DNA of 64,000 bases from Bacillota bacterium (GTDB taxonomy: Bacteria > Bacillota > Desulfotomaculia > Desulfotomaculales > Desulfohalotomaculaceae), in NCBI GenBank assembly GCA_009711615.1, contig VENI01000009.1:248001-312000 (forward strand), read 5' to 3'. Positions 39,075 through 40,437 of the stretch are shown piece by piece. The notes beneath the pieces are model-generated. The model did no database searches. It was not told the origin of the DNA and saw nothing but the letters and a program-made list of their open reading frames with translations. Both the position numbers and the translations under genes were made by a program. Within the stretch, counting starts at the first letter, position 1; each line of letters starts with the position of its first letter.

Positions 39075-39176
39075 TATGTTATGGAATACTGGACCAAGAC
39101 TATGGTGATAATAAAATGTTGATCCCGAACTACAAAGAAGGATAACCATTTTAAGATTTAAGGGGGTTCGTTTCTA

Positions 39177-39335
39177 TTGTTTGACTACATTTTCACTATA
39201 TCTTTTGGTTTAGCTGCTTGAACAGGCGTACTTATACTTTTGAGGGGCTCAAAAGATAGTAAGTTTAGGAAAGGACATGTTATTCTTGGATTTATTTCTA
39301 CTATTCTTTATATTGTAGGTTTTTTTTATAAATAA
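39177..39335 (+). CDS. 52-codon membrane protein frame with one in-frame UGA (selenoprotein candidate or nonsense mutant)
   Basis: The frame starts at a TTG with AGGGGG 10 nt upstream: LFDYIFTISFGLAA, then UGA at codon 15 (39219-39221), then TGVLILLRGSKDSKF and VILGFISTILYIVGFFYK to a TAA. The two halves form a clean two-helix small membrane protein in a single frame. A perfect 8-bp hairpin with a GGG loop starts 15 nt after the UGA, as in bacterial SECIS elements. The alternative is a TGG-to-TGA change of a Trp (AAWTG), which fits the decayed neighbours. It is convergent with the peroxidase at 39365. Confidence 0.45.
39230..39264 (+). promoter_or_regulatory. SECIS-like hairpin after UGA at 39219
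   Basis: Lower stem ACTTA/TAAGT, small internal loop, upper stem CTTTTGAG/CTCAAAAG, apical loop GGG (39245-39247). The loop begins 23 nt after the UGA, inside the 16-37 nt window usual for bacterial SECIS elements. Confidence 0.4.
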
Positions 39336-39364: not shown

Positions 39365-39847
39365 TTAACTATTATTAATTAATTTAATTACTTTCTGTTC
39401 AAGCTTTGAAGGCTTTGTGGTTGGGGCAAATCTATCTATTACATTACCCTGCGCATCAACAAGGAATTTGGTAAAATTCCACTTGATAGATTCTCCAAAG
39501 ATTCCTTTCTTTTGCTCACATAAGTATTTGAATAACGGGTGTGCATTAGGGCCTTTCACATCAACTTTTTCAAATATTGGAAAAGTCACTCCAAAGTTAG
39601 TTTGGCAGAAATTCTTTATTTCTTCACTTTTTCCTGGTTCCTGGTTTGCAAATTGATTGCATGGAAATCCTAAAACTTCAAATCTCTCATTACCAATTTT
39701 CTTGTAAAGAGCTTCCAGCTCTTTATATTGAGGTGTAAAACCTCATATGCTAGCTGTATTTACTATTAGCAATACATTACCTTTATATTTCATAAGATTA
39801 ATTATTTCCCCATCAATAGTTTTTACTTCGAAATCATAAATTGACAC
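39365..39847 (-). CDS. Glutathione peroxidase family protein with UGA at the catalytic position (probable selenoprotein)
   Basis: 160 codons from a GTG at 39847 (AAAGAGG upstream). The frame is intact except for UGA at codon 35 (39743-39745), in IVNTAS-I-UGA-GFTPQYKELE. In the family this slot is the peroxidatic Cys or Sec (TASKCGFT or TASKUGFT). The other active-site residues are present: Gln69 in FPCNQFANQEPG, and Trp123 and Asn124 in IKWNFTKFL. Cys81 may be the resolving residue. A hairpin with a GGA apex follows at SECIS distance. Gene finders would annotate only the C-terminal 74 residues. It reduces peroxides with thiol donors. Confidence 0.8.
39706..39724 (-). promoter_or_regulatory. 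SECIS-like hairpin in the peroxidase mRNA
   Basis: On the minus strand AAAGAGCT-GGA-AGCTCTTT, whose loop starts 26 nt after the UGA at 39743. Bacterial SECIS elements lie just downstream of UGA with G in the apical loop. Confidence 0.55.
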
Positions 39848-39949
39848 TTTATAACCTCTTTTCTTGCAATATAGTTAACCCGTCTAAAAGCATAGTTTTA
39901 GGGTGTTGCATATAATGAAAAAATATTCAATTTAGATTTCGGATATTTT

Positions 39950-40064
39950 TTACAACACGTCAACAACCCTGTTGATTGGTATGCATGAAATGATGAAGCC
40001 TTTGATAGCGTCAGAGCACAAACCGGTATTTTTAAGTGTAGGTTATTCTACTTGTCATTGATGT
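39950..40064 (+). pseudogene. Relic of a DUF255 thioredoxin-domain (YyaL-type) gene
   Basis: The plus strand reads LQHVNNPVDWYA, UGA, NDEAFD, then after a frameshift KPVFLSVGYSTCH, UGA, C. These match the conserved N-terminal blocks of the YyaL/DUF255 family (NPVDWYPWGEEAF and KPIFLSIGYSTCHWCHVM). Both UGA codons fall where Trp is expected. The rest of the roughly 600-codon gene is missing. This is clear decay rather than recoding. Confidence 0.75.
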
Positions 40065-40275
40065 GAAAGTAATGAGCTAATTCCAGAACATTATAAGCAC
40101 TAGTTGATTATATGGATATTGTGCATTAACTAACTTTTCTTAACCAAAGCCATATAAAAATCTATTTATAAATTGAAATACCTCTGGAAAAACATGATAT
40201 AGCTATGGTTTCTTTGAATAATTTAATTTTCTATCGGTCAATATACTAAAAGAATGTAATCAAGGGGGTGAAATA

Positions 40276-40437
40276 ATGTCTAATATTCAATGTAGAGTTG
40301 AAGAGTGCCATTACAATCAAAATGAATTGTGCCAAGCTTCTACAATTGAAGTAAACGCAATGGTGAAAGATCATATGGTCAGTACTACTAGAGATACTTC
40401 ATGTGAAACTTTTGTTCCAAAAGTTAAAATGCAATAA
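40276..40437 (+). CDS. DUF1540 Cys-rich small protein
   Basis: 53 residues with the DUF1540 pattern: IQCRVEECHYNQNELCQASTIEV, then a Cys near residue 46. AAGGGGGTG is 5 nt before the ATG and a terminator follows. DUF1540 proteins are small, four-cysteine proteins of unknown role, common in Clostridia and presumed to bind a metal. This one appears intact, unlike its neighbours. Confidence 0.85.
   Translation: MSNIQCRVEECHYNQNELCQASTIEVNAMVKDHMVSTTRDTSCETFVPKVKMQ

Follow-up and report, generated by a model that had tools for sequence, protein, structure and literature searches.

We found that a very short gene in the window, the 64,000-nucleotide stretch of DNA analysed here, very probably encodes a 52-residue integral membrane selenoprotein, in which the UGA at codon 15 would be read as selenocysteine (Sec). 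This reading is based on a conserved UGA followed by a conserved hairpin, on coding after the UGA and on the Sec machinery in the genome. The features of the locus are as follows.

39160..39167, + strand: ribosome binding site AAGGGGGT, read from the sequence, 9 nt 5' of the TTG at 39177
39177..39335, + strand: putative small selenoprotein gene of 52 codons, with a TTG start, UGA at codon 15 and a TAA stop; homologue in genome G057 at L010:1495-1653
39219..39221, + strand: UGA of putative Sec15, which lies in predicted transmembrane helix 1; the G057 homologue likewise has TGA here
39237..39255, + strand: candidate bacterial SECIS hairpin CUUUUGAG-GGG-CUCAAAAG, with the loop at 39245-39247; supported by folding, a blind scan and identity in G057
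39333-39335, + strand: TAA stop of the small gene, read from the sequence
39365..39850, - strand: Sec-containing glutathione peroxidase (Gpx), PF00255 at 1.3e-43, with its TGA at 39743-39745; convergent to the small gene

The translated product, with UGA as U, is LFDYIFTISFGLAAUTGVLILLRGSKDSKFRKGHVILGFISTILYIVGFFYK. An earlier sequence-only reading had claimed a 52-codon frame with a good ribosome binding site and UGA at codon 15, and both the coordinates and the binding site were confirmed from the sequence. Standard gene finders would score such a gene as a broken frame.

When 113 genomes of the order were searched at the protein level with stop codons read through, one relative was found, in genome G057, which belongs to another family within this order. 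The G057 protein is 69% identical over 52 residues, and its gene also starts with TTG, with the ribosome binding site AAGGAGGT 7 nt before it. TGA occupies codon 15 in both G057 and the window's genome (G000). The 20-nt hairpin segment at 39236-39255 shows zero changes between the two, and the main stem in G057 reaches 9 bp. Third codon positions are changed in 19 of 42 codons outside codons 15 and 18-26, compared with 0 of 9 in codons 18-26 (P about 0.009, hypergeometric over all codons except 15). For codons 16-52, dS is 0.79 and dN is 0.14, resulting in a dN/dS of about 0.2 after the TGA. In addition, frame 0 keeps more residues than expected from random placement of the same substitutions, with P values of 0.017 for the whole gene and 0.009 past the hairpin; the same test showed no such excess in the other two frames. 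Codons 1-14 taken alone show no significant coding conservation against G057. Together, the third-position and frame-0 statistics indicate that both lineages translate the post-UGA sequence in one shared frame, and that the hairpin appears constrained beyond the demand of the protein. The slot at codon 15 had been expected to hold Cys or UGA among relatives; the UGA part stood, being found in both members, whereas no Cys homologue was found. Neither a Trp nor a Cys homologue was detected in roughly 950 genomes searched, and the G057 protein, with TGA, is the one putatively Sec-containing homologue found elsewhere. A short similarity, AGGNTAACCA, is also seen 5' of both starts (L010:1450-1490 and window 39137-39165), perhaps a promoter or leader element.

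The hairpin is composed of a perfect 8-bp stem capped by a GGG triloop, with 15 nt between the UGA and the stem and 23 nt between the UGA and the loop, all as described in the sequence-only reading. The published model of the bacterial SECIS element (bSECIS) has a loop of 3-9 nt, a stem of 4-16 bp, a distance of 16-37 nt from the UGA, a G within the first two loop positions and an energy at or below -7.5 kcal/mol (PMC13188914). The claimed fit to bacterial SECIS geometry is borne out, as the 3-nt GGG loop with its G, the 8-bp stem and the 23-nt spacing are all inside the limits of this model. A 52-nt stretch folds at -11.5 kcal/mol with a z-score of -2.2, and the isolated 44-nt fold starting from 11 nt past the UGA has an energy of -7.3 kcal/mol, slightly above the -7.5 of the model. 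The G057 hairpin has an energy of -8.2 kcal/mol, yet the minimum of the naked RNA is an alternative fold that pairs the UGA itself. The extra 5-bp lower stem that had been proposed does fold in the window but not in G057, and for this reason it was dropped as part of the SECIS element. Since the two known members are invariant in the hairpin, it contains no compensated pairs. A search of Rfam gave no match.

Both strands were scanned blindly for TGAs with a Watson-Crick stem (at least 7 bp) that carries a G[G/U]N triloop 16-37 nt away. Among the 2,087 TGAs of the window, only two qualified: that of the small gene, with 8 bp, and the Gpx Sec codon, with 9 bp. In dinucleotide-shuffled windows, the number of such sites per 64 kb was 0.475; it fell to 0.175 for stems of at least 8 bp and to 0.05 when a usable frame was required. 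In four other stretches (66 kb), the scan revealed the G057 element and one likely false positive, L082:3272, a probable terminator, so SECIS geometry alone is suggestive and not proof.

The Gpx hairpin UAAAGAGCU-GGA-AGCUCUUUA, with a perfect 9-bp stem and a spacing of 26, was used as an internal yardstick, Gpx being a selenoprotein type already known. In G000 the Sec hairpins of SelD (8 bp, GUA) and Gpx (9 bp, GGA) share their style with that of the small gene. The same genome contains a tRNA-Sec with the anticodon UCA. SelB was found above the cut-off in both G000 and G057, and in G057 it is adjoined by SelA, identified by reading frame. SelD with an in-frame UGA is present in all six genomes examined (L072-L077), G000 and G057 among them. 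The SECIS loops of SelD are GGA, GUA or GUG triloops in five of these six genomes, while that of G057 is a CGGGA loop on a weaker 5-bp stem.

The competing idea from the outset was a decayed gene, in which a Trp codon (TGG) has mutated to TGA and the hairpin has arisen by chance. Similar decay has apparently taken place some 750 nt away, where a remnant at about 39954-40100 (+ strand) contains two TGAs (VDWYA*NDEAFDS and STCH*CES) and a frameshift between its pieces. The remnant resembles YyaL/DsbH-type thioredoxin proteins, which have Trp at both TGA positions; it is probably a pseudogene and illustrates the appearance of genuine decay. However, G057 keeps the TGA of the small gene despite substantial synonymous divergence, the sequence after the TGA is under purifying selection with the hairpin unchanged, and the roughly 950 genomes yielded no TGG homologue. 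Homologues with TGG and no hairpin had been named as the outcome speaking against Sec; the sole homologue, from another family, keeps both the TGA and the hairpin letter for letter. Decay from Trp is thus very unlikely.

A stable hairpin 3' of a stop codon can promote readthrough, and a near-cognate tRNA, that for Trp or another, might decode the UGA in a programmed, hairpin-stimulated and selenium-free manner; the inserted residue cannot be named from sequence alone. We regard this as highly improbable, as the hairpins at the Gpx and SelD Sec codons of the same genome have a matching geometry and likewise a G[G/U]N triloop, and both carrier genomes contain the Sec machinery. Given the shared hairpin style and this machinery, Sec is the simplest assumption for the residue. 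The locus might also consist of two parts, a 14-codon leader ending at the UGA and a hairpin with a regulatory role, in which case the downstream frame would be either unused or separately translated. A leader peptide plus hairpin would be attenuator-like, and a shorter frame might conceivably begin at the TTG of codon 22. However, the in-frame constraint after the UGA acts at the protein level (P about 0.01), the length, the stop position and the two-helix pattern are all kept, and no large gene lies nearby downstream on the strand, which leaves the leader arrangement extremely unlikely.

The putative Sec-containing product was predicted by AlphaFold2, run on the two sequences, to form helices at residues 2-24 and 28-51 with a pLDDT of 74. 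The hydropathy values of the two helices, 2.1 and 1.8, are enough for membrane helices. The model thus predicts two transmembrane helices, with Sec15 in the middle of helix 1 within the motif AAUTGVL. The protein has no Cys, and the conserved His34 is at the start of helix 2. According to the positive-inside rule, basic loops sit on the cytoplasmic side; the strongly basic interhelix loop RGSKDSKFRKGH therefore probably faces the cytoplasm. Convincing relatives of the small protein were found in none of Pfam, NCBIfam, PHROG and PDB, and the PDB sequence and fold searches returned generic helical hairpins only. Likewise, a comparison with the 119 catalogued families of prokaryotic selenoproteins, which also covered the list of family motifs, gave no match, with no Pfam or NCBIfam domain model above the cut-off, in agreement with the earlier claim that no known selenoprotein family has this form. 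These comparisons are best read as pointing to a new and very small family of membrane selenoproteins that is Sec-only.

Based on these features, we propose the following course. The ribosome would initiate at TTG 39177, and the SECIS hairpin, 23 nt 3' of UGA codon 15, would recruit SelB with Sec-tRNA-Sec for the insertion of Sec. Elongation to the TAA would yield a helical hairpin of two transmembrane helices joined by RGSKDSKFRKGH and carrying Sec midway along helix 1; this hairpin would insert into the membrane with the basic loop inside. As a guess, Sec15 may be the sole redox centre, a membrane selenol reacting with peroxides or with other small lipophilic or sulfur/metal substrates. Its recycling might, again speculatively, proceed via an intermolecular bond, which we propose given that Cys is absent from the protein. 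For the activity, our guess ranks membrane-embedded selenol redox chemistry first and metal binding second. That the family is little beyond a transmembrane helical hairpin, exists in the Sec form only and uses a lone in-membrane selenol as a redox or metal-binding centre has, in our view, about an even chance of being right.

Comparison with known systems shows partial similarities. As is proposed for the small gene, the Gpx of the window (PF00255) uses the Sec decoding route with a perfect stem and a triloop starting with G, but it is a soluble thioredoxin-fold enzyme of unrelated sequence, adjacent in G000 only. The eukaryotic SELENOK and SELENOS are also small membrane selenoproteins, whereas their Sec is close to the C terminus and lies outside the membrane, and their eukaryotic SECIS is in the 3' UTR; we know of no sequence relation between them and the small protein. 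The motif UxxV of TsoY (NF047643) fits the UTGV of the small protein, a coincidence of motif only, as no NCBIfam match to TsoY was obtained at E values up to 1. The 2026 catalogue contains a bacterial membrane selenoprotein, the putative mercuric transport selenoprotein (MerT-like, PF02411) with the motif C/SxxU (PMC13188914). The small protein is likewise of membrane type, but it has no Pfam match to this family, and its L-A-A-U lacks Cys or Ser at -3. Most known selenoprotein families have a thioredoxin fold or a thiol redox motif (PMC13188914), and computational methods that look for selenoproteins in bacteria rely on Cys homologues (PMC12013277). A Cys homologue is the usual support for a new selenoprotein family, and the two members found here are, judged from their codons, both of the Sec form. 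If this is true, a class of very short Sec-only selenoproteins has been overlooked by searches dependent on Cys homologues, and the question arises what job a single selenol has in the lipid bilayer without a partner Cys.

G000 and G057 are the only carriers found among the genomes of the window's own family (7), the order and class (113), an even sample of the phylum (398), three other classes of the phylum around G115, G116 and G117 (90; samples of 83, 4 and 3 genomes) and the class of G134 (399), the phylum samples partly overlapping. The gene is thus sporadic, in 1 of 3 genomes of its own genus and 1 of 110 other genomes of the order. It was not found in the genome contig collection, viral contigs, plasmids or phages. 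Weak matches at seven loci of the phylum sample, including the two with TGA, were read individually and look like chance or other genes; one candidate, FSFSA*AGVILLLRSSK at L016, seems antisense to an RsgA-like gene and was rejected. The patchiness could result from loss or transfer. SelB of G000 is 57% identical to that of G057, below the 69% of the small protein, and this gap mildly favours transfer or strong constraint.

A likely selenoprotein gene had been placed about 30 nt from the small gene; it is the convergent Gpx, whose stop is 29 nt away. A functional link hinted at by this arrangement did not hold up, as the adjacency is not conserved: the G057 gene has no Gpx beside it, so the adjacency in the window implies no shared pathway. 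In Gpx (NTASIUGFTPQ), a second small hairpin, UGAGGU...ACCUCA, overlaps the UGA upstream of the SECIS element. Further downstream, a small 53-aa Cys-containing frame (MSNIQCRVEECHYNQNELCQASTIEV...) is found at window 40276-40437 (+ strand), which presumably resembles DUF1540-type proteins.
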